Position numbers and translations under genes: made by a program. A stretch of 22,327 nt of DNA from a virus. The stretch spans positions 1-22,327 of the IMG/VR virus record IMGVR_UViG_3300009034_002052. One strand, 5' to 3'. This document shows positions 6,198 to 19,976 of the stretch, one piece after another; position 1 is the first letter of the stretch, and each line of letters opens with the position of its first letter. The notes below the pieces were generated by a model. That model worked only from the letters and a program-made list of their open reading frames with translations. It had not been told where the DNA came from and did no database searches.

Positions 6198-7070
6198 TTA
6201 GATAGTAGTCATTTTGCAGATTCCATTAGAGTCATAGACAACAGGTAAACCACGTGCATAAACGCGTCCAAACAAGCCTTCACCTTGACGTTTACTCAAG
6301 ATTTCAGTTTCAACAGTAAAGTCTTCAGCAACAACGTACTCGAACAAGCCTATTGGATTAGCTTTTGTCATCATGCCTGTGCCCGCTGTGATTGTGGCTG
6401 TGGGATAAATGTCCCCGCCGATTCGCTCCTTGATCCATGTCAAGTATGGTACAGCTGTGTTAGCAACAAAGACGGCTGCTTCGTTGTACTGTGTCGGGTT
6501 CACGCACAAGTTGTATGGCGGGAAAATGTTGTCAGTCATTAGCAAGGCTATAGTGTTGTTGATGCTTGTGGCAATGTTAGCTGCGGTGCCCCAGTCGAGG
6601 CTGGTTGCTTCACTGTTTCCAGCAGCATTATACAATCCATTGATGTCATAGTTTGTTCCATCCCGGCTATAGCCAAGAATCAGCAACGTGTCCTCTTCCA
6701 AGCCAACCTTGTACCCTGCAGACTCTGCAGTTGTCGTGTTCAACGGGGTGCCACTGAGTCTTGAAGCAGCCAAATCCAACTTGTTAAGTATAAACTCCTT
6801 ATGAATGTTCGGCACTGCAACAGTGGTTCGCGCAAGGTTGATTATGTCAAGCGTTTCTCTTCCCGGCCAAGCAACGTCAATAGCCGCGTTAGCAGCTTCT
6901 GTCATAGTGTCGTAACCGAAGGTTTGTGTGCTTGGATCAATCTTTCTGATAGGCAATAGTTTTCTTCCAACAAGCTCTCGGCGGGCTGCATAGACTACTC
7001 TGTCGAGAATGTATTGGCCTTGCTCGGTTGTTAAGGGTTCGTCTCTGCCAACGTATCTTAGTTTGTTCAT
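6198..7070 (-). CDS. Major capsid protein, encapsulin-like HK97 fold
   Basis: The protein has 290 residues. Its pattern is that of the HK97-fold shell proteins related to family 1 encapsulins. It shows an N-terminal helix ending RRELVGRKLLPI (about 30-41), a strand pair with LARTTVAVPNIHKEF, and the helix phrase ATRL/AASRLSGTPLNTTTAESAGYKVGLEEDTLLILG. It then has SLDWGTAANIATSINNTIALL followed by PPYNLCVNPTQYNEA. A C-terminal strand set ends in GRVYARGLPVVYDSNGICK. It follows protease, scaffold-like and decoration-like genes, where a major capsid gene is expected. The absence of an encapsulated-cargo enzyme and the presence of portal and terminase indicate a virion shell rather than a nanocompartment. 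A likely terminator follows. Confidence 0.8.
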   Translation of the reverse strand: MNKLRYVGRDEPLTTEQGQYILDRVVYAARRELVGRKLLPIRKIDPSTQTFGYDTMTEAANAAIDVAWPGRETLDIINLARTTVAVPNIHKEFILNKLDLAASRLSGTPLNTTTAESAGYKVGLEEDTLLILGYSRDGTNYDINGLYNAAGNSEATSLDWGTAANIATSINNTIALLMTDNIFPPYNLCVNPTQYNEAAVFVANTAVPYLTWIKERIGGDIYPTATITAGTGMMTKANPIGLFEYVVAEDFTVETEILSKRQGEGLFGRVYARGLPVVYDSNGICKMTTI

Positions 7071-7072
7071 GG

Positions 7073-7627
7073 CTAAATCGCGCTCCTCACCATGATGTCC
7101 GTGATTGCTGCAACGTCTGCAATGGTTTCTTCAGCGTATGCTACGATTGGACCGTCAGCGCCAAATGTGCCTGTAGATGTGATTGTGGGTTGAGCACTTG
7201 TGCTTGTCACCGCTGTAGTGCCTGAGGCGACTACGGTAGTTGCAACCGCAGCCTTCTTAACACATCCAGCTGTACCCATCACAAGAGCGTCTCCTTTCTT
7301 CAAGGTGCCTTGACTTGCCTGCAAGGCTGCTACGATTACGAAGCCTCCGCCATTATGCACTGCAACTTGAGCATCTTGCAAGTATATGGTGTCTACGGTT
7401 GCAGGTCTGTGCTTCTTGATTGTGTCTTCGTAGCCGAGCCATCCAACTGCCATGCTGTTAAGTGCGTATGCGCCTCCAACAGTAACGTCGTCGTCGTTTG
7501 TGCCTTGAATCACCAAGCGTCCTGGGTACATGTTAGTAGCTGTTTCAACCTTCAAGATTTGTGTGAGTGGGGTTCCAGAGACTATGATTTTGTTTGTTGG
7601 TTTCGGACCGACTCCTACGTCAGCCAT
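7073..7627 (-). CDS. Head decoration / DUF2190-like protein
   Basis: The protein has 184 residues, with GGAGG 8 bases before the ATG. It is Ala/Val/Thr/Gly-rich and beta-structured. It includes MYPGRLVIQGTNDDDV, AVGWLGYEDT and a segment GTLKKGDALVMGTAGCVKKA. The last phrase ('KGD-L-----G-V--A') is typical of small beta-barrel decoration or head-stabilising proteins encoded beside capsid genes. It stops 2 bases before the capsid ATG, so both are likely made in large amounts from one message. Confidence 0.6.
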   Translation of the reverse strand: MADVGVGPKPTNKIIVSGTPLTQILKVETATNMYPGRLVIQGTNDDDVTVGGAYALNSMAVGWLGYEDTIKKHRPATVDTIYLQDAQVAVHNGGGFVIVAALQASQGTLKKGDALVMGTAGCVKKAAVATTVVASGTTAVTSTSAQPTITSTGTFGADGPIVAYAEETIADVAAITDIMVRSAI

Positions 7628-11188: not shown

Positions 11189-12778
11189 TCACCCTCTCAG
11201 CTGGTTCGCTTGGATTTTAACTTCCCATAGATACAGTTTTTTGCTTGCATTCTCTTTGTTAATGATGTAGAAGAATGGTTCAAGTTCCCATGCTCCGACA
11301 GCTGCTGTGTGCGTGGCTTTCAAGACTCCATCAACGTAATATTGAACTTTTGCAGCTTCTTGGAAAACTATTATGCTGAACAAGTGAAATGCGGTGTCTG
11401 CTGCAATGCCTAAGTCTGTTGATGTAGGAGCACCGCCGACTGTAGTTACTGCAAACCAGTTAGCTCCTGCACCTGCAGGATCATACTTGAATTCCATGAT
11501 GTTAGTTGCGTCTTTTCGTAGTTGAAGCTGACAAGTCTGTTGAATTATATTGCTTAATTGAGCATACATATCCATCCATGGTCCGAGGCTGCCGAGACTG
11601 ATTGTTTTAGCGTTGAGGTCAAGTTGAGCTGTGCCTCCAGTGGTTGCACCACTATCTAACTGAACATATCGGTTAGCAAGTGTGATGGCTCCCGTTCCGC
11701 CTACTGTGGAATTCCACTTCGCAAGTAAAGCATTTCCTCCAAAACTGTCAAACAAAACAGTTTCAAACCCTGGCTGAACTACTTGGTTGCCTATGCCCTC
11801 ACGCGTGATGTACATGCGAACTTTATCTGTCAAAGGAAGCAATGGATAAAACGTGTTATCTTTGCTTGTACTCGTGAATTTTATGGGATCAACGACATTA
11901 GCTGCAGGACCGTAACCGCCTTCAAAACGTGCGTGAATTTCGTTGCCTTCTCCTGCAACTGAGAATCCAACTAACGCTTCTGAAACATCTTGAACGTATA
12001 TTTTATTGCACCCTGCAGTTTTTGAGTCAATGCCTGTCATGAGGGCTCCGCCAAGACCCTCTATGAAAATCTTGTTAGCATTAGTTGCATTAACATTACC
12101 TAATCGTAGACCTATTCCATTACCTATGATTAACTGTTTGATGTCAATTACGTTCCAATGGTCACCATCAAAATCAAGCCCTACAGCCGCACTATCACTT
12201 GAAAGATACATATTCTCAATTCGACAATGCTGAAGATGATTACACTCTACCATTGTGCCTGCAAGTTTTGTCCAAGGATCATGAATTCTCCAATTCTTCA
12301 AAACCATATTAGTCTGCACGTTAGCACTTGTTTGAATAAACGGGCCTGCACCAACATAACTGCTGGAAGGACGTAGAACTGCAGCACCACCAAAATCGAT
12401 AGTAAACCCAGGAGCAACGGGATCAGGAATTGTTAAGTCATCAAGTACGTCATAATAGGCTGGTTTGAAAGTTACATAGCCTGAAGGATTTAAAGCTGCT
12501 GCCGTGTTCCAAACATTTTGTATCACCGTGCCAACAACAAGTCCAGAAAAATCAACTTTTCCTGTAGAACCGTTCAAAGCCTTAGTGTAATTTCCCTCCT
12601 TGTAAATTAGGTAGTTGCACGGCAACCCTGCAACAGGTCCGCCACCACTATACATTCGAGCCTTCATCAACAATTGTTCAGCATGCATACCATCCAGTAA
12701 GTCAGCATCTAACCCTTTACCATGCCCGGGATAAACAAGTTCATCACTCAGTATTGACCTCTTTGGATGTGAAGACAT
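11189..12778 (-). CDS. Beta-helix fibre / receptor-binding protein, paralogue 2
   Basis: The protein has 529 residues, with AAGGAG 7 bases before the ATG. Residues 14-70 form an adaptor: VYPGHGKGLDADLLDGMHAEQLL, then GGGPVAGLPC and YKEGNYTKALNGSTGKVDFSG. This is closely matched in the neighbouring 408-residue protein. A pectate-lyase-type beta-helix follows (CRIENMYLSSDSAAVG, HIDGDHWNVIDIKQLIIGNGIGLRLGN-type rungs), running to about residue 330. The last 200 residues form a separate beta-sandwich (TISLGSLGPWMDMYAQLSN, LQLRKDATNIMEF, FFYIINKENASKKLYLWEV) that looks like a carbohydrate-binding lectin domain. The likely role is host surface recognition. Confidence 0.78.
   Translation of the reverse strand: MSSHPKRSILSDELVYPGHGKGLDADLLDGMHAEQLLMKARMYSGGGPVAGLPCNYLIYKEGNYTKALNGSTGKVDFSGLVVGTVIQNVWNTAAALNPSGYVTFKPAYYDVLDDLTIPDPVAPGFTIDFGGAAVLRPSSSYVGAGPFIQTSANVQTNMVLKNWRIHDPWTKLAGTMVECNHLQHCRIENMYLSSDSAAVGLDFDGDHWNVIDIKQLIIGNGIGLRLGNVNATNANKIFIEGLGGALMTGIDSKTAGCNKIYVQDVSEALVGFSVAGEGNEIHARFEGGYGPAANVVDPIKFTSTSKDNTFYPLLPLTDKVRMYITREGIGNQVVQPGFETVLFDSFGGNALLAKWNSTVGGTGAITLANRYVQLDSGATTGGTAQLDLNAKTISLGSLGPWMDMYAQLSNIIQQTCQLQLRKDATNIMEFKYDPAGAGANWFAVTTVGGAPTSTDLGIAADTAFHLFSIIVFQEAAKVQYYVDGVLKATHTAAVGAWELEPFFYIINKENASKKLYLWEVKIQANQLRG
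12552..12590 (-). repeat. 39-base direct repeat, copy A (in fibre paralogue 2)
   Basis: This 39-base block is identical to 13840-13878, while the flanks differ at many silent sites. It encodes YTKALNGSTGKVD in both fibre genes. Confidence 0.85.
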
Positions 12779-12809: not shown

Positions 12810-14036
12810 TTATGGCTTGTAAGTGGCTTCCCAATAAACCGTGTAAGTTCCAGAATTAGCCACATGAACCGTGAACTGTGTACTTGTGAATGTGTCAACG
12901 TAATAGTCGCCTGCTCCTGTAGTTCCTAATGTTACTCTCACATTGGTTGGTGTTCCAGCTAAGCCATGAGTCACCACTACGCTTGTAGAAGCTGATATGG
13001 TTGCGGTTCCACTGTTTGTAAGCCATTTCCCACTTATCCATACTCTTGTTTGCATTGTTGCGCTGAAATCAAAACGTTTAGATGCAACAAGCGCACCATC
13101 ATCGTGAAAAACTGGATTTATCAAGTATCCATAAGCTGTGCTATCTACACCTTCAATACTAAAACAGTAGTTTGCTGGTGTCACCGAACCTGTTTCAATT
13201 GCACAATAGTCAAGCTTGAATCCTAACGCATAAACAATACGATATCCATAAGTGTAGAAGTGATAAGCTAAACAATCTCTTATGGTTGTTTCAATAGGTC
13301 TTGCAGAAGCAGTATTCTCATCACTAACTCTAAAGGCTTCATTTGCACTATATGAACTGCATTTCCAAAGTGTTACCCAATCAGCTGTCACCCAAAAACC
13401 ATAGTCAAAGGCAGAAGTGGAACATTCCTGAACGAGAACTTGGTTTCCACTAATTTCGTGAATTTTGAACCCTGCTGATCCAGATATTTTACCTACCGCT
13501 GTGCAAGTTATACGATTTAAAGTGGCTTGTTCGGGATAATTTATTAGTATGCCTCCACCTAATGTTGAAGGATTTGACGTTTCAACCGTAAAATCTTGCA
13601 GAAGATAATATCCTGTTTTTGTTACTGTGTTAGCGGATTTAATTGCCCAATCGGTTCCTGAATAAGTAAAGGTTACACCTTCTCGATTCTCTCCAATAAA
13701 TCCAAGTTGTTTTCCGTCTGGAAAAACTATACCACTACTGCCTAAATCGTATGTGCCATTTTTAATGAAAAAATTTTGCCCATTCGTCATGTTGCCTAAA
13801 ACACTGTTTATCACCGCACTACTATCCGTGTCCGTGAAGTCAACTTTTCCTGTAGAACCGTTCAAAGCCTTAGTGTAAAGACCCTCCTTGAAAACAAGAT
13901 AACTGCAAGGTAATCCTGCGACGGGTCCGCCGCCACCCCACATCCGAGCCTTATACAAAATCTCTTCAAGATGCACCCCGTCAACTGTGTCAGCGTCTAA
14001 ACCGTGACCGTGTCCGGGATAAACAACTTTACTCAT
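12810..14036 (-). CDS. Beta-helix fibre / receptor-binding protein, paralogue 1
   Basis: The protein has 408 residues, sharing its first 70 with the next gene (VYPGHGHGLDADTVDGVHLEEILYK, GGGPVAGLPC, YTKALNGSTGKVDF). The middle is a right-handed beta-helix with short repeated rungs and aromatic stacks (YCIAIETGS-, KLDYCAIETGSVTPANYC). The C-terminal 60 residues form a compact Thr/Val-rich beta domain (VVVTHGLAGTPTNVRVTLGTTGAGDYYVDTFTSTQF), resembling the small terminal domain found at the end of many phage fibre proteins. It starts 4 bases after the terminase stop, with no clear ribosome site. Confidence 0.77.
   Translation of the reverse strand: MSKVVYPGHGHGLDADTVDGVHLEEILYKARMWGGGGPVAGLPCSYLVFKEGLYTKALNGSTGKVDFTDTDSSAVINSVLGNMTNGQNFFIKNGTYDLGSSGIVFPDGKQLGFIGENREGVTFTYSGTDWAIKSANTVTKTGYYLLQDFTVETSNPSTLGGGILINYPEQATLNRITCTAVGKISGSAGFKIHEISGNQVLVQECSTSAFDYGFWVTADWVTLWKCSSYSANEAFRVSDENTASARPIETTIRDCLAYHFYTYGYRIVYALGFKLDYCAIETGSVTPANYCFSIEGVDSTAYGYLINPVFHDDGALVASKRFDFSATMQTRVWISGKWLTNSGTATISASTSVVVTHGLAGTPTNVRVTLGTTGAGDYYVDTFTSTQFTVHVANSGTYTVYWEATYKP
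13840..13878 (-). repeat. 39-base direct repeat, copy B (in fibre paralogue 1)
   Basis: Second copy of the identical block, 1,288 bases from the first and in the same orientation and reading frame. It could be a recombination point for exchanging fibre domains. Confidence 0.85.
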
Positions 14037-14039
14037 TGG

Positions 14040-15422
14040 TTATCGTACCACCCATGCAGGCTCCGTCTTAGCCAACGTATTACGGACAACAATCTCCACG
14101 CTATCAAGAGCATCATCGTACTGTCCACGCGGAAATTGTACCCACTCGTTCCAAAACTCGCTTTTCACACCAAGCAACAACGGATTCACCAAGATACGTT
14201 TACTCTCAAAATGGCTGCTCATAGGAATAAACCTGCTTTCTTTATCATGAACTGTTACGGAAGGCACAATTGGTAAGCCTTTAAGTTCAGGGATGAAAGT
14301 TAAGATTTTCTGGAAACTGTTAGACTCCATGAATATTTTTGCGAACTGATAAGTCTGGTGTAGCTGTTTCAGTTTTTCAAGGAATGATGGAAATGGCAAT
14401 CGTTCAGCATAGACTTGAGTTAAGTAAGCTTGGTTTGTTGGTTTGTAAACACCTATGATAGCGATTCCCTGATAGTCACCTTCTCCCAACGCTGGATCCA
14501 CACCAGCATAGTAGGTTAAGGTTGTTGGCAACTCTTCCCAAGTGTGAAGCCACTCCGACTTCAACAACTCGCCTTGCATACTCGTTGGATCATTCTGGTA
14601 TTGGCAGTTGAAGAATATGGAGCCTATTTCGTCTCGTCTTTCCTCAAGCTTCTGCAAACTCCAGTACTCAGGCCACAACGCAGAACCATCAGGTTGAATG
14701 GCTTGTTTAATGTCAGTGTTGCCCTTCCACTTTTCAAGTAAGCCCGCATAAATGTCAGCATAACTCCACCTTGTGCCAATCACGATTATTGCACCCCAAG
14801 GATATAAAGTTGGGATGAGCACTTTATTGAACCATGTGTCAACTTTCTCCAGCTGCAGCCTTGTACGAATATTCTCTTCGTCGATGATGTCGTCGCAAAT
14901 CACCAGGTCGCTTCTGCCACCGGTTATGGGGCCCATAAGCCCTGTTGCCTTCAGTGTGGGGTTTTTGCTGATTTCATCGCGGGCTATTATGATTTCTCGG
15001 TTAGTCCATTTTTTAGGTTGACGAGGTTTAAGGTTGCCAAATATTTCTCTGTAACTTTCATCAGATTCAAATATGGTGGTGATTGCAGTTAAAATTTCTT
15101 CGGCGAGACTTGCGGTTTTAGTGACTATGTTAATGTGAATGTTTCGGTAATTGCCAACAAGCCACAAAGGATAGTTTATTGTTGTAGATGTTGTTTTTGC
15201 GTGTCCACGAGGCCATAACAAAAGGTATCTTTTTTCTTTGTCAACTTCTGTTTTGAGGGGACTAAAACGGTTTTGCAGATAACGGTACCATTCAAGGTGA
15301 AAAGGTGCATTATCATAGCCAAGCGCCTCAGTGAATGCTATCAGATTTTTTTGTGCGTGGTAGCTTCTTATTGAGGATACTTGCTGCTCGGTTAAGGATA
15401 TCGTCTTCATCTGTTGTGACAT
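14040..15422 (-). CDS. Terminase large subunit (TerL)
   Basis: The protein has 460 residues. The N-terminal ATPase has a Walker A-type motif WPRGHAKTT (70-78), a Walker B DLVICDD (172-178) and a coupling motif GTRWS (216-220). The C-terminal RNase H-like nuclease shows VDPALGEGD with D309, an acidic residue in MESNSF (E366) and QYDDALD (D436, D437, D440), the usual three-acid metal site. The protein cuts concatemeric DNA and pumps it through the portal. Its first 95 bases overlap the small subunit in another frame. The N-terminal helix YHAQKNLIAFTEALGYDNAPFHLEWY looks genuine, so the long overlap is probably real. Two ATG codons (15422 and 15410) are possible starts. Confidence 0.95.
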   Translation of the reverse strand: MSQQMKTISLTEQQVSSIRSYHAQKNLIAFTEALGYDNAPFHLEWYRYLQNRFSPLKTEVDKEKRYLLLWPRGHAKTTSTTINYPLWLVGNYRNIHINIVTKTASLAEEILTAITTIFESDESYREIFGNLKPRQPKKWTNREIIIARDEISKNPTLKATGLMGPITGGRSDLVICDDIIDEENIRTRLQLEKVDTWFNKVLIPTLYPWGAIIVIGTRWSYADIYAGLLEKWKGNTDIKQAIQPDGSALWPEYWSLQKLEERRDEIGSIFFNCQYQNDPTSMQGELLKSEWLHTWEELPTTLTYYAGVDPALGEGDYQGIAIIGVYKPTNQAYLTQVYAERLPFPSFLEKLKQLHQTYQFAKIFMESNSFQKILTFIPELKGLPIVPSVTVHDKESRFIPMSSHFESKRILVNPLLLGVKSEFWNEWVQFPRGQYDDALDSVEIVVRNTLAKTEPAWVVR

Positions 15423-15747
15423 TTATGGTAACTCTTTCATCTATTGTTGTGGTTGTGGATGCTTCAATTTTACGAGTTTGTTTCGCTACGAAGAGTTTAG
15501 TAAGTTGACGGAATGCTTCACGTTTATCTTCTTTTCTTAGTTCACCATAATGTTCAAGCCATAACGAGCCTACCCATTCATCAAAGTCAAGTGTTTGCAT
15601 CCAACGAGCAATCTTACGGTTCACGGTTTCCCGTCGTTTCTTAAGAAGTACTGCTATTTCACTTTGGTTTTTGCCATCAAGGATGAACCCTTTAATCTTT
15701 GCAATATCAAGTCGGTCTGTTGCTGAAAGTGTGAGGTTTTGTGACAT
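15328..15747 (-). CDS. Terminase small subunit-like protein
   Basis: The protein has 139 residues directly upstream of and overlapping TerL. A helix-turn-helix is visible at about residues 14-50 (AKIKGFILDGKNQSEIAVLLKKRRETVNRKIARW), which would bind the packaging start site on viral DNA. A Thr-rich beta segment (ASTTTTIDERVTINVTTDEDD) and a basic C-terminal helix ILNKKLPRTKK follow and may contact TerL. The small-subunit label comes from HTH plus position; sequences of this family are poorly conserved. Confidence 0.72.
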   Translation of the reverse strand: MSQNLTLSATDRLDIAKIKGFILDGKNQSEIAVLLKKRRETVNRKIARWMQTLDFDEWVGSLWLEHYGELRKEDKREAFRQLTKLFVAKQTRKIEASTTTTIDERVTINVTTDEDDILNRAASILNKKLPRTKKSDSIH

Positions 15748-16714: not shown

Positions 16715-17146
16715 TTATGCTTCTGTAGCTGTAACCGTGAATGTCCAGCCCAGAACTGTGCCACCCTGTGCATCTGCAGGTGCAGTTAAAGTTAAGGGGC
16801 CCGTAGCGGTTTCGGTTGGCGCAATTGTTACTGAGTCAGGAGTCCAAATTTGAAGCCATCCCTCGGGTAAGTCGTTAGTAAAGGTTAATGTCACGGTGAT
16901 TGAGCCTGTGTTTGTAACCGTTAAAACGGAATTTACTGTTTCTCCTGCCGTAATTGTTTCCCAGTCCCACCCCTCTGTTTTAGGGTCAAACGGTATGCCA
17001 TCCAAGGTGAAAGCTAAGCCGATACCAGACACCGTCACGGTTTGAGAAATAATGTACTCTTGAACTGCGTAAGCTACTGCTACTCCAAGCGATAACGTTA
17101 CTAATGCAATGATTATCCATTTCAAGTTTTTGTTCAAGTGTTTCAC
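16715..17146 (-). CDS. Exported Ig-like beta-sandwich protein
   Basis: The protein has 143 residues from the GTG at 17146. A TTG at 17137 with GAGGTGA 5 bases upstream is an equally good start. One transmembrane or signal segment is seen (WIIIALVTLSLGVAVAYAV, residues 10-28). It is followed by an all-beta domain with TAGETVNSVLTVTNTGSITVTLTF and a Thr/Gly/Pro-rich close. This architecture matches the membrane-anchored, CARDB/SipW-like Ig proteins common in archaeal cell envelopes. It could be a virion surface or host-envelope protein. It overlaps the upstream coiled-coil gene by 4 bases. Confidence 0.62.
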   Translation of the reverse strand: MKHLNKNLKWIIIALVTLSLGVAVAYAVQEYIISQTVTVSGIGLAFTLDGIPFDPKTEGWDWETITAGETVNSVLTVTNTGSITVTLTFTNDLPEGWLQIWTPDSVTIAPTETATGPLTLTAPADAQGGTVLGWTFTVTATEA

Positions 17147-17676
17147 CTCACTATGACTTTTTCTTTCTGTTTAAACTCTTCAATCCAACCCTTCAACTCG
17201 TCGATTGTAGCGTTTGCGTTGCTGAGTTCTTTCTCCTTAGCTTGTAGAAGTGTGCTGTTTGCGTTAGAGGCGACTTGCTGTTCTAACCCTTTGATCTGCT
17301 CGACTTGACTTGTGATTGTGGTTTTCTGACTATCAATAGTTTGATTTAACATTTCTGCTTGCTGAGCTGCATAAGCTTGAGTGCCATAAACCATTTCTTT
17401 AACTTCCTCTGTCTGCTGTTTAGCCTGTCGTAAACTCGTGAACAATTTGCCTACAACCAAACTCACTGAACCTATTGCACCTGCAGCTGAAGCGAGGACT
17501 TGAACGGGCTGCTGCATAATCCAAGACACAGCGTTTTGTATGGTTGCTGGAAGGTTGCTTAACATTGTTGGGATGTTGCTGACAACGTTTATTCCATGTG
17601 CAAGGTATAGGTAGCCTCCGAAGCCGATAGCAAATAAGCAGGCGATGAGTAATAGTTGTTTAATCAATATAATCAC
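17143..17676 (-). CDS. Membrane protein with C-terminal coiled coil
   Basis: The protein has 177 residues. A strong transmembrane segment lies at residues 3-26 (LIKQLLLIACLFAIGFGGYLYL). A second apolar stretch lies at 57-80 (PVQVLASAAGAIGSVSLVVGKLF). From about 84 to 175 the chain is a Gln/Glu/Ala-rich coiled coil. Two TM segments and a long coil suggest a holin-like pore or spanin-type protein, or a membrane tether. It is not a tape measure, being far too short. Its 5' end overlaps the mini winged-helix gene by 17 bases. Confidence 0.55.
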   Translation of the reverse strand: MIILIKQLLLIACLFAIGFGGYLYLAHGINVVSNIPTMLSNLPATIQNAVSWIMQQPVQVLASAAGAIGSVSLVVGKLFTSLRQAKQQTEEVKEMVYGTQAYAAQQAEMLNQTIDSQKTTITSQVEQIKGLEQQVASNANSTLLQAKEKELSNANATIDELKGWIEEFKQKEKVIVR

Positions 17677-17821
17677 TTGTTTCTTTTCGGTTAAGTGTAA
17701 TAACGGTTTTTAAGCCTTTTTTAGTAAGAGCATAATCTTTTTTTCCGTTAACAACCCTAACCTCAGCTAATCCCTTCTGAACCAACAGCGACAAAGCTTT
17801 GTCAATTTCCTTATGACTCAT
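17660..17821 (-). CDS. Mini winged-helix DNA-binding protein
   Basis: The protein has 53 residues. The sequence MSHKEIDKALSLLVQKGLAE, then VRVVNGKKDYALTKKGLKTV, is the C-terminal half of a MarR/PadR-type winged helix: recognition helix, the beta wing 'V-NGKK-YALT-KG', and a closing helix. It has no N-terminal helix pair, so it probably dimerises or works with a partner. It starts in an ATGA overlap with the GAP1-like gene and overlaps the next by 17 bases, so it belongs to the GTPase module and may regulate it. Confidence 0.62.
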   Translation of the reverse strand: MSHKEIDKALSLLVQKGLAEVRVVNGKKDYALTKKGLKTVITLNRKETSDYID

Positions 17822-18165
17822 TTTGTGTCTATCCTTATCGGCTCCAACTTTTCAGGCTTCTCCAACCTCTCAACGAAATAGTCTTTCAACAGTTCAAGTG
17901 GTTCAGTGAAAGCAAGATAATCCATGAGGCGCATAGCAATAGTGCTGTTCCAAACTCCATTACGTCCAAACTCGTCTTGTACCTTGCTCACTTTTGTTAT
18001 CGTGATTACTCCGTTGGGCCACAAGTTGCTATATTCTTTTGGTTTTTCAAGTTTGCACAAGTAGTCGATGATGTCTCCATTTAACAGCTCTTTTAAGCTT
18101 GGGCTCGGCAACAGTTTGATGCCATAGCCTTTAATCATGCCATAAACGAAATGTTCTACTTTCAT
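17818..18165 (-). CDS. GAP1 N-domain-like partner of the GTPase
   Basis: The protein has 115 residues. The pattern FVYGMIKGYGIKLLPSPSL (6-24), then WPNGVITITKVSKVQDEFGRNGVWNSTIAM (48-78) and MDYLAF, resembles the N-terminal domain of GTPase-associated protein 1 (GAP1-N). The family's 'YG---GY-LL--SP' and 'D--GR-GVWNHT' phrases can be made out, though the family His after GVWN is replaced by Ser. In cellular genomes GAP1 is encoded beside P-loop GTPases of NTPase-driven conflict systems. Here it overlaps the GTPase gene by 4 bases (ATGA at 18162-18165), strong support for a functional pair. The middle and C-terminal GAP1 domains are absent. The function is inferred; the assignment rests on recalled motifs. 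Confidence 0.5.
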   Translation of the reverse strand: MKVEHFVYGMIKGYGIKLLPSPSLKELLNGDIIDYLCKLEKPKEYSNLWPNGVITITKVSKVQDEFGRNGVWNSTIAMRLMDYLAFTEPLELLKDYFVERLEKPEKLEPIRIDTK

Positions 18166-19154
18166 GCTGCAAACGTCTTCAAAAAGTTAATTAGATTCCT
18201 GTAACCAAGAGCATAATATTCAGGCACTCTGCCATAGGTGAGCCACTCGTTTGGCGGTTTCACTTTAATTATAGGTCCACCCTCAGGCCAACGTTTCTCT
18301 TTACCAGTCTGTGCATCCACTTCTGTTTGGACGAAGCTTGGAAAGAACTGAATGTTTTTTATGCGACTACTCTTCAACGCCATGCTGGTTGCGGGGAAAC
18401 AAATGTTCATGAAGTTCTGTAAACCCAAGCCCGTTGGATCAAGAATGTCCATGCCCCACTTACTCGCGTAAGGCATGATAAGATCCCATTTTGTGATTAC
18501 ACAAGCTACAGCTTTTATGGGTTTTGCGTGAGTTTGATCTTTATAGTCAATTATTGCACTTAAGATTCTTTTCAAGTTCACATCAGGATCAATAGGTAAG
18601 TCACCTGTTTCCCGTTCCAACTGTATGTCATGATGGTGAACAAGGGCACGGCTTGCTGGAATTGCCATCACGAAGCCTTCCGCATTGCGAACATCTTGAA
18701 TGAGCCTGAGACTTTGGTTATATTCTTCAAGGCTTGGAGCGTACGGTTCTTTATGTTTTATCATGGCTACTATGTCTTCACCAGCTACATCAACGATGGG
18801 TATGTGAATGCGTTTGTCACCCCAAACTCCAGCCCACTCCATGAGCAAGCCCGCTTCAATAGTGCTTGTTTGGTAAGGACGAGTTTTATTTGGGAAGCGT
18901 CCTGTTCTCAGTAGGCTCGCACCCTCTTCTATGTCGCTGGTGCCCTCAAGAACACGGCATGTAAACTGTTGTTCCCTTGCTGACATGGTTTGTGCTGTTA
19001 ATAGTATTAAATCAGCGATTGTGGTTTTGCCAGCTCCTTGTGTACCCACTAATGCGAATCTGCATTTGAAGCTATGCCATTCGGTTGGTCGCATGTGCTG
19101 AGGAAACAGCACTTTTGTTTTTGGAGGCTTAAACATTTTTTTTAGGAAACTCAT
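18162..19154 (-). CDS. P-loop GTPase, DO-GTPase/Ras-like
   Basis: The protein has 330 residues. A basic leader precedes the P-loop GTQGAGKT (37-44). The second metal site is VDVAGED (D122, G125), a G3-like DxxG followed by Glu instead of the usual Gln. ITKWD (220-224) is a TKxD guanine-specificity motif, so GTP rather than ATP is expected. An extra insert with a long helix (EEYNQSLRLIQDVRNAEG) separates G3 and G4. DxAGE plus TKxD recalls the double-GTPase families found in bacterial conflict systems, but only one GTPase domain is clear here. The gene lies 7 bases after the two-TM gene and overlaps the GAP1-like gene. Viral DNA translocation or host interference are both possible. Confidence 0.75.
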   Translation of the reverse strand: MSFLKKMFKPPKTKVLFPQHMRPTEWHSFKCRFALVGTQGAGKTTIADLILLTAQTMSAREQQFTCRVLEGTSDIEEGASLLRTGRFPNKTRPYQTSTIEAGLLMEWAGVWGDKRIHIPIVDVAGEDIVAMIKHKEPYAPSLEEYNQSLRLIQDVRNAEGFVMAIPASRALVHHHDIQLERETGDLPIDPDVNLKRILSAIIDYKDQTHAKPIKAVACVITKWDLIMPYASKWGMDILDPTGLGLQNFMNICFPATSMALKSSRIKNIQFFPSFVQTEVDAQTGKEKRWPEGGPIIKVKPPNEWLTYGRVPEYYALGYRNLINFLKTFAA

Positions 19155-19160
19155 GCAAAC

Positions 19161-19556
19161 CTACTTCTTTTCGGGTTCAACGGGTTGAGGGGTGACTGGT
19201 GAAGATTGCCCTTGTGGGATTGCCACAGGCTGAGCTGTGGGAGCCGCTTGGTAACCATACGCTTCTTTAACTGCGCTTCTTGCTGCTGATTGCCTAATTT
19301 TGTTGTAAACATTGTGTCCTTGCCATGTGATTAAGAATGTAACTACACTAAAGAATGCACCGCTGATCCAGACATCCCATGTTTGCCACCAAACATTTCC
19401 AGTAATTGCAGTGTACACGGCTGTGATGAATCCTGTAACTGTGGGTCCGAGTGTGTTGTCGATGCTGCCACCCCAACCAGGATTAATCTTGCTGATGAGT
19501 AGGTAGCCTATGCCAATGGCGATTAAGATTATGAGTAACAGTTTTTTTTTCGACAT
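19161..19556 (-). CDS. Small two-TM membrane protein
   Basis: The protein has 131 residues. TM1 lies at residues 4-22 (LLLIILIAIGIGYLL) behind a Lys-rich start, so the N-terminus is probably cytoplasmic. TM2 lies at about 59-79 (WDVWISGAFFSVVTFLITW). The last 30 residues are Pro/Gln-rich and unstructured. A GGTGATG site precedes the ATG, which overlaps the stop of the start-less ORF (TAATG). It could be a holin or an anchor for the GTPase that follows 6 bases downstream. Confidence 0.65.
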   Translation of the reverse strand: MSKKKLLLIILIAIGIGYLLISKINPGWGGSIDNTLGPTVTGFITAVYTAITGNVWWQTWDVWISGAFFSVVTFLITWQGHNVYNKIRQSAARSAVKEAYGYQAAPTAQPVAIPQGQSSPVTPQPVEPEKK

Positions 19557-19837
19557 TACAACATCACCCCCTTCCTGTTTTTCTGGAATGTGCCACGACC
19601 CAATGCATCATAGAAAATTTCGCCCTGCTCATAATGGCTTGTGGCTTCGGGTAGAACATATTCAAACTGTGTTTTTAACTGTTTGTGAGTGAGGTCTAAC
19701 GCGTTTTGTGTGCAAACAGTTTCACTTAACTTTTGGTCTTGGAAGCTAACGGATGAGATGAATTTGCGTGCAAACTTTTTTTGTTGTCGGCGTATCTCGC
19801 CTTGTATACTTCTGGTTCCTCGTCGATGGGTTATGAT
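19556..19837 (-). CDS. First ORF of the leftward unit, no ordinary start codon
   Basis: An open frame of up to 106 codons (19873-19556) follows the divergent promoters and contains no ATG, GTG or TTG near its 5' end. The segment ITHRRGTRSIQGEIRRQQKK, then RKFISSVSFQDQKL and FEYVLPEATSHYEQGEIFYD, reads like a real, basic, helical protein. A strong CGGAGGAG site lies at 19852-19845. Starts at ATC (19837) or ATA (19834) would be 9-12 bases away. The TTG at 19841 is in another frame and would need a one-base slip, possible at the seven-A run (19782-19776 on the plus strand as T). It ends by overlapping the next ATG. Function unknown. Confidence 0.5.
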   Translation of the reverse strand: MITHRRGTRSIQGEIRRQQKKFARKFISSVSFQDQKLSETVCTQNALDLTHKQLKTQFEYVLPEATSHYEQGEIFYDALGRGTFQKNRKGVML

Positions 19838-19873
19838 ACAACCGCTCCTCCGTTTTAATTTGGGGGCGAACTG

Positions 19874-19901: not shown

Positions 19902-19922
19902 GGTTTTTGGTGGTTTAGAAAG

Positions 19923-19931
19923 TTTTATATA
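19923..19931 (+). promoter_or_regulatory. Rightward archaeal TATA promoter
   Basis: TTTTATATA preceded by AGAAAG (a fair BRE) is a textbook archaeal box. Transcription would begin near 19952, just at an ATG that opens an 8-codon mini-ORF (19954-19980) ending inside the first gene's start. Confidence 0.7.
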
Positions 19932-19976
19932 CCCATTCGCATATACAATCACCATGCAAATAGGAGAAAAAGAAAG

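Follow-up and report, generated by a model that had tools for sequence, protein, structure and literature searches.

The window analysed here is a virus record of 22,327 bases from IMG/VR. Its minus strand carries two open reading frames that overlap by 4 bp, one for a protein of 330 residues and, downstream of it, one for a protein of 115 residues, as the sequence-only reading had pointed out; both belong to a block of small genes that runs up to the terminase genes:

19559..19873 (stop-to-stop limits), minus strand: small basic protein, first gene of the block (HMM E-value 1.4e-21)
19161..19556, minus strand: membrane protein of 131 residues with a Pro/Gln-rich C-terminal tail, conserved upstream neighbour of the GTPase
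18162..19154, minus strand: DO-GTPase1-like TRAFAC GTPase of 330 residues, ATG start
17818..18165, minus strand: stand-alone GAP1-N1-like domain protein of 115 residues, ATG start, predicted longin-like fold
17143..17676, minus strand: membrane protein of 177 residues, two N-terminal hydrophobic segments followed by about 100 residues of predicted coiled coil
16715..17146, minus strand: single-TM protein of 143 residues with an Ig-like/NEW3 domain, predicted to lie outside the cell
15328..15747, minus strand: probable small terminase (TerS), judged from its position and a weak HTH match, the 3' boundary of the block
14040..15422, minus strand: terminase large subunit (TerL; phrog_38, 2.3e-98)

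After TerL, genes for the portal, a DUF2213-type protease and the capsid follow on the same strand. The major capsid protein (6198-7070, minus strand) matches the Linocin_M18 encapsulin family with an E-value of 4.5e-22, above the Pfam phage capsid families, and gave no tblastn match in the phage collection. Two adjacent long proteins (11189-12778 and 12810-14036, both on the minus strand) share the N-terminal motif YPGHGxGLDAD, with similar openings repeated; judging from these openings they are likely paralogues, and possibly fibre or receptor-binding proteins. The first gene of the block is missed by a plain list of open reading frames because it has no in-frame ATG, GTG or TTG start; a Shine-Dalgarno-like GGAGG is present, and an ATA or ATC start or a sequence error are both possible. 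Its product carries the motif HRxGxRS...SFxD...GRGxFQK and is about 80 residues long across the relatives of the block. The 131-residue membrane protein has two TM segments in the majority of its homologues, while the second TM segment of the block's membrane proteins falls below the hydropathy cut-off in several homologues. A small open reading frame of about 54 residues (about 17660-17821, minus strand) lies between the 115-residue partner and the coiled-coil gene, and by eye resembles a winged-helix fragment. On the plus strand, a TATA-box-like element, TTTATATA, is found at about 19920-19935 ahead of divergent plus-strand genes, a weak hint at an archaeal host.

The 330-residue protein has the GTP-type motifs that had been read from its letters alone: G1 (GTQGAGKT), G3 (DVAGED, with a glutamate following the DxxG) and G4 (TKWD). 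All three are conserved across 19 aligned homologues, in which G37 and K43 of the first motif, G125 and E126 of the second and D224 of the third are invariant. DO-GTPases are diagnosed by a conserved Walker B glutamate (DxxGE; Kaur et al. 2020, eLife, PMC7159879), which corresponds to E126 here and is found in 19/19 of the viral homologues. When searched against Pfam, 15 of the 19 homologues matched DO-GTPase1 (PF19975; best E-value 3.9e-7) and 10 matched DO-GTPase2 (PF19993), all other families being far weaker; the GTPase of the window itself matched DO-GTPase2 only, and weakly (E 0.041). One relative scores above the curated Pfam cut-off for DO-GTPase1 (29.8 vs 27 bits) and the other matches lie below it. 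Run over 18 whole virus records, the DO-GTPase1 model gave nine matches, one per record, all of which fall on the GTPase gene by their coordinates.

Profile-profile comparison of the viral GTPases with their plasmid counterparts gave an E-value of 1.3e-10 over about 200 columns for DO-GTPase1 and of 2.5e-8 for DO-GTPase2. Against 46 single targets the best 11 were without exception DO-GTPases, ranking above Der, ObgE, LepA, Era, YcjX and MnmE, which form a small control set. The AlphaFold model of the GTPase (pLDDT 79, pTM 0.81) retrieved EF-Tu, EngA, atlastin and a Lokiarchaeal Rag-like GTPase in a fold search, with E-values down to 1e-5; the C-terminal ~65 residues form a virus-specific extension that the DO-GTPase alignment does not cover. 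The reading of the 330-residue protein as a DNA-packaging or AAA ATPase, an outcome that would have counted against the sequence-only reading, was rejected: its matches to such P-loop proteins are weak, its fold is that of TRAFAC proteins and the virus has a separate terminase. Motifs, profiles and predicted fold identify the protein as a TRAFAC GTPase with DO-GTPase1 as its nearest family, and its placement among the DO-GTPases thus holds.

The assignment of the 115-residue partner to GAP1-N was upheld as well, specifically to type N1, and here the link rests on profiles. The phrases that the sequence-only reading had quoted for this protein are present in it. Among the partner homologues, F6, L36, N73 and T75 are invariant, and D64 and R68 are kept at 90% or more; their length varies from 110 to 140 residues, a GAP1-N domain alone. 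The GAP1-N1 model (PF20012), run over 12 virus records, gave two matches only, both inside the partner gene by coordinates, and the window's own protein did not match it by itself; a search of 8 virus records with the GAP1-N2 model was negative. For the profile comparisons, authentic GAS operons were fetched from plasmids, with their DO-GTPase2, DO-GTPase1 and GAP1-N1 genes confirmed by Pfam; a bait sequence served as search key only, and the sequences analysed are the plasmid genes recovered with it. Three actinobacterial megaplasmids tried as a source of GAP1-N2 yielded none. Baits for N2 gave either nothing or two weak unannotated matches, which were dropped. The partner profile aligned with GAP1-N1 over 104 columns in full register from residue 1, and the viral YG and GR..xxxNHT motifs fell upon the YG and SRxGxVxTHA motifs of GAP1-N1.

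One might argue that this link is convergent, i.e. that the 115-residue protein represents a different small alpha/beta domain and that true kinship is limited to the GTPase, as a relative of the DO-GTPases. Single partner sequences indeed match Pfam GAP1-N1 weakly (2 of 19, best 0.049), and subgroups of the alignment taken alone score modestly against it. However, the profile match strengthened as homologues were added, from an E-value of 1.1e-7 with 19 sequences to 6.3e-9 with 22, and the matched controls were clean: other GAP1 segments and other block proteins gave no signal (best 0.037), and the best of 30 column shuffles of the partner alignment reached only 0.014. GAP1 targets also take the top rank for the partner among the single targets compared, and the gene lies beside a DO-GTPase1 gene and overlaps it as in GAS operons. 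We therefore largely disfavour convergence and consider it very improbable. In terms of its profile, the 115-residue protein is a stand-alone GAP1-N1-like domain, and we regard the family identity of the pair as largely secure, with a little room for doubt.

The AlphaFold model of the partner (pLDDT 92.9, pTM 0.86) has a beta-beta-alpha-beta-beta-beta-alpha topology, which fits the beta2-alpha-beta3-alpha arrangement of longin and roadblock domains. A Foldseek search of the PDB returned longin domains from Lst4, FNIP2/FLCN and KICSTOR/GATOR entries at E-values of 0.01-0.02 (for the Lst4 longin, probability 0.99, E 0.02, TM 0.51-0.53), with the T6SS regulator TagF as best match (probability 0.99, E 0.01); PAS/LOV domains rank next, and the longin fold is easily confused with these. 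The fold search of BFVD gave nothing significant, and sequence searches of the PDB with the partner and with a bacterial GAP1 retrieved no relatives. We take the predicted longin-like fold as suggestive only, a lead. Longin and roadblock domains are regulators of G domains, as in MglA-MglB and Rag-FLCN/FNIP. A possible likeness of the viral pair to MglA-MglB, Rag-FLCN/FNIP2 and Lst4 would consist in a G domain that works at a membrane together with a small longin-like protein; it differs from these in lacking sequence membership, and the viral GTPase is a DO-GTPase and not Ras-like.

The closest counterparts are bacterial GAS systems of the GAP1-N1 type (Kaur et al. 2020, PMC7159879), and the same work states that DO-GTPase-GAP1 pairs lack close relatives beyond the conflict systems of bacteria; a published viral member was not found in the literature searched. 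In both the plasmid operons and the virus, a GAP1-N1 domain is encoded directly 3' of a DO-GTPase1 gene, and the two frequently overlap by 4 bp; both have a TRAFAC G domain with the glutamate after DxxG, and their GAP1-N regions align over the whole of the ~100 residues. The differences are equally clear. Bacterial GAP1 proteins have 650-825 residues and three domains, GAP1-N, -M and -C, whereas the viral partner of 110-140 residues is GAP1-N alone; a GAS system of this type has two DO-GTPase genes, whereas each virus locus has a single GTPase; and where GAS systems carry variable effectors, the virus has fixed, virus-specific membrane genes in a late region. Across 15 virus records, all of them fragments of unstated completeness, GASH (PF19994) had no match at E≤10 and GAP1-M was absent. 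No match to an effector family (phosphoesterase, TIR, caspase or EAD) was seen among the block neighbours in the virus sequence examined; the membrane proteins of the block could conceivably act as effectors themselves. PADLOC matches, the best of which (4e-5) fell on the coiled-coil protein, were judged to be composition effects. With no GASH, no GAP1-M, a single GTPase and no recognisable effector family, the viral pair is related to the core of GAS systems without being such a system itself, and the earlier suggestion of a conflict system as such does not hold. The GAP1-N2-type systems resemble the viral block in their membrane association and in partner domains of Ig/FNIII-like type (PMC7159879), but differ in that the viral sequence match is to type N1.

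The GTPase and partner of the window, used as direct queries, retrieved no relatives in pattern searches of viral contigs, in tblastn against the phage collection or in two scans of genome collections, and the relatives' GTPases likewise retrieved none from the phage collection by tblastn. Virus relatives were instead reached via TerL (25 loci), followed by alignment-based scans for further contigs; no cellular or proviral copy was seen in the genome collection scans, which were pattern-based and limited. Upstream of TerL, the relatives have the GTPase at 29-42% identity; it is present in all 10 TerL-related loci with at least 4.8 kb of upstream sequence, and in 24 of 24 distinct virus contigs (the window and 23 further ones) at the same place. 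The sequence-only reading had proposed to look for the same pair in other archaeal viruses; in 22 of these 24 virus contigs the GAP1-N-like partner lies directly 3' of the GTPase, the 4-base overlap recurring at many loci. The order of the block is fixed: basic protein, 2-TM protein with the Pro/Gln tail, GTPase, partner, 2-TM/coiled-coil protein, TM-Ig protein and then TerS-TerL; some loci have in addition a membrane protein of ~105 residues between the partner and the coiled-coil membrane protein. In a 37-kb relative the block forms the 5'-most part of a long minus-strand run holding the head and tail genes.

The two contigs without a recognisable partner (L014 and L015, which are near-identical; 6275-7530) retain the GTPase and most of the block, with an unrelated ORF of 98 residues at the partner position; the partner is thus dispensable at times, or has been replaced there. 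At four loci (L035, L038, L042 and L082) the terminase has no phmmer match to that of the window while the block is retained, so that, to judge from these comparisons, the terminase module has been replaced and the block kept. The block is under purifying selection: the GTPase has dN/dS values of 0.03-0.11, the partner of 0.10-0.24 and the membrane proteins of 0.18-0.25. As seen from gene content and order, the pair is a conserved late-region component across the whole group of viruses and not a captured accessory; conservation and synteny across the contigs led us to reject a captured moron, and with it the earlier idea of a captured module. The initial reading of the locus was right about the families and probably wrong about their setting.

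What, then, might the block do? In phages lambda and P22, the lysis genes lie directly 5' of TerS-TerL. The viral block resembles these lysis cassettes in that it occupies the same place and is rich in small membrane proteins; it differs in that it shares no homologous proteins with them, the likeness being positional only, and a lysis enzyme or endolysin was not identified for it. This analogy makes a late function at the envelope, for instance in egress or lysis, appear the most likely. Because the cassette immediately precedes TerS-TerL and is oriented like the head genes, its products are probably expressed late and directed at the envelope of the host, with egress, lysis or their timing as the likeliest functions. 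Building on the observed family relationship, gene order, conservation and selection, we infer a physical complex, late timing and an egress role for the block. The predicted topology would place two cytosolic proteins between membrane proteins whose tails reach into the cytosol, with an Ig domain on the outside. The GTPase would be a TRAFAC switch and the 115-residue protein its regulatory partner; if longin-like, the latter probably binds to the G domain, and would either control the nucleotide state of that domain or keep the GTPase in position. Together they would make up the cytosolic centre of a membrane complex whose other members are the neighbouring gene products, namely two paired-TM proteins with cytosolic tails (one Pro/Gln-rich, the other a coiled coil) and a TM-anchored external Ig-like protein; the switch and its small regulator would sit under the membrane and control this complex. 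We tentatively favour, as a reading that has close to an even chance of being correct, a minimal DO-GTPase1/GAP1-N1 switch at the cytosolic core of a late envelope complex whose likeliest purpose is egress or lysis, or the timing thereof.

Other roles for such a complex have to be weighed against this. The Ig-domain protein might be displayed on the cell surface, where a GTPase-controlled membrane complex would remodel the surface and block the entry of related viruses. Superinfection exclusion of this kind, also raised by the sequence-only reading, is in keeping with the TM-anchored Ig-like protein and the other membrane proteins of the block, and with the frequent membrane linkage of bacterial GAP1-N2 systems (PMC7159879); yet exclusion genes are usually accessory and patchy, whereas the block is found in every related contig with enough upstream DNA, travels with head and packaging genes and is retained across different terminases, and we think this role unlikely. 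The same tight linkage to packaging and head genes could instead mean that the membrane and coiled-coil proteins belong to the virion or the tail, where they would be needed to deliver DNA through the host membrane, with the GTPase pair driving their assembly; coiled-coil proteins of this sort are known in tails and injection devices. Against this, block members have no convincing PHROGs match to tail or ejection families, the head and tail run of the 37-kb relative includes a distinct baseplate-hub-like protein elsewhere than the block, and a cytosolic GTPase would be unexpected in a virion, so that a part in the virion or in entry seems to us improbable.

A third function, that of a defence antagonist, is suggested by the homology to the predicted cores of conflict systems: a partial DO-GTPase/GAP1 pair could poison or mimic a DO-GTPase system of the host, and the retention of the GAP1 N-domain alone is what one would expect of a dominant-negative fragment. 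A decoy should, however, track host systems and vary, while the G-domain motifs of the viral GTPase are intact and strongly conserved; the pair is moreover tied to four or five virus-specific neighbours, and L014 and L015 keep the GTPase without the partner. We consider a decoy quite improbable, and return to the late envelope complex as our preferred reading.

The viral GTPase and its partner are a much reduced relative of a two-protein GTPase switch that is otherwise known solely from the conflict systems of bacteria, and the fixed setting of the pair suggests that the viruses use the same switch on the host envelope, and not as a borrowed defence gene. The mechanism of DO-GTPase/GAP1 pairs has been neither solved nor tested in the literature searched, and the minimal viral form, a G domain with a lone GAP1-N of 115 residues, offers a small, tractable unit for questions about nucleotide state and membranes. 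If GAP1-N is truly longin-like, the pair would be a G domain with its regulator, linked to switches of the MglA-MglB type. We can also imagine, as a long shot, that tailed viruses have a GTPase envelope machine for egress or lysis based on a DO-GTPase/longin-like pair, and that the GAS systems grew from, or share an ancestor with, this virus membrane switch. The pair is also a concrete candidate for how these tailed viruses may act on or leave the host envelope.
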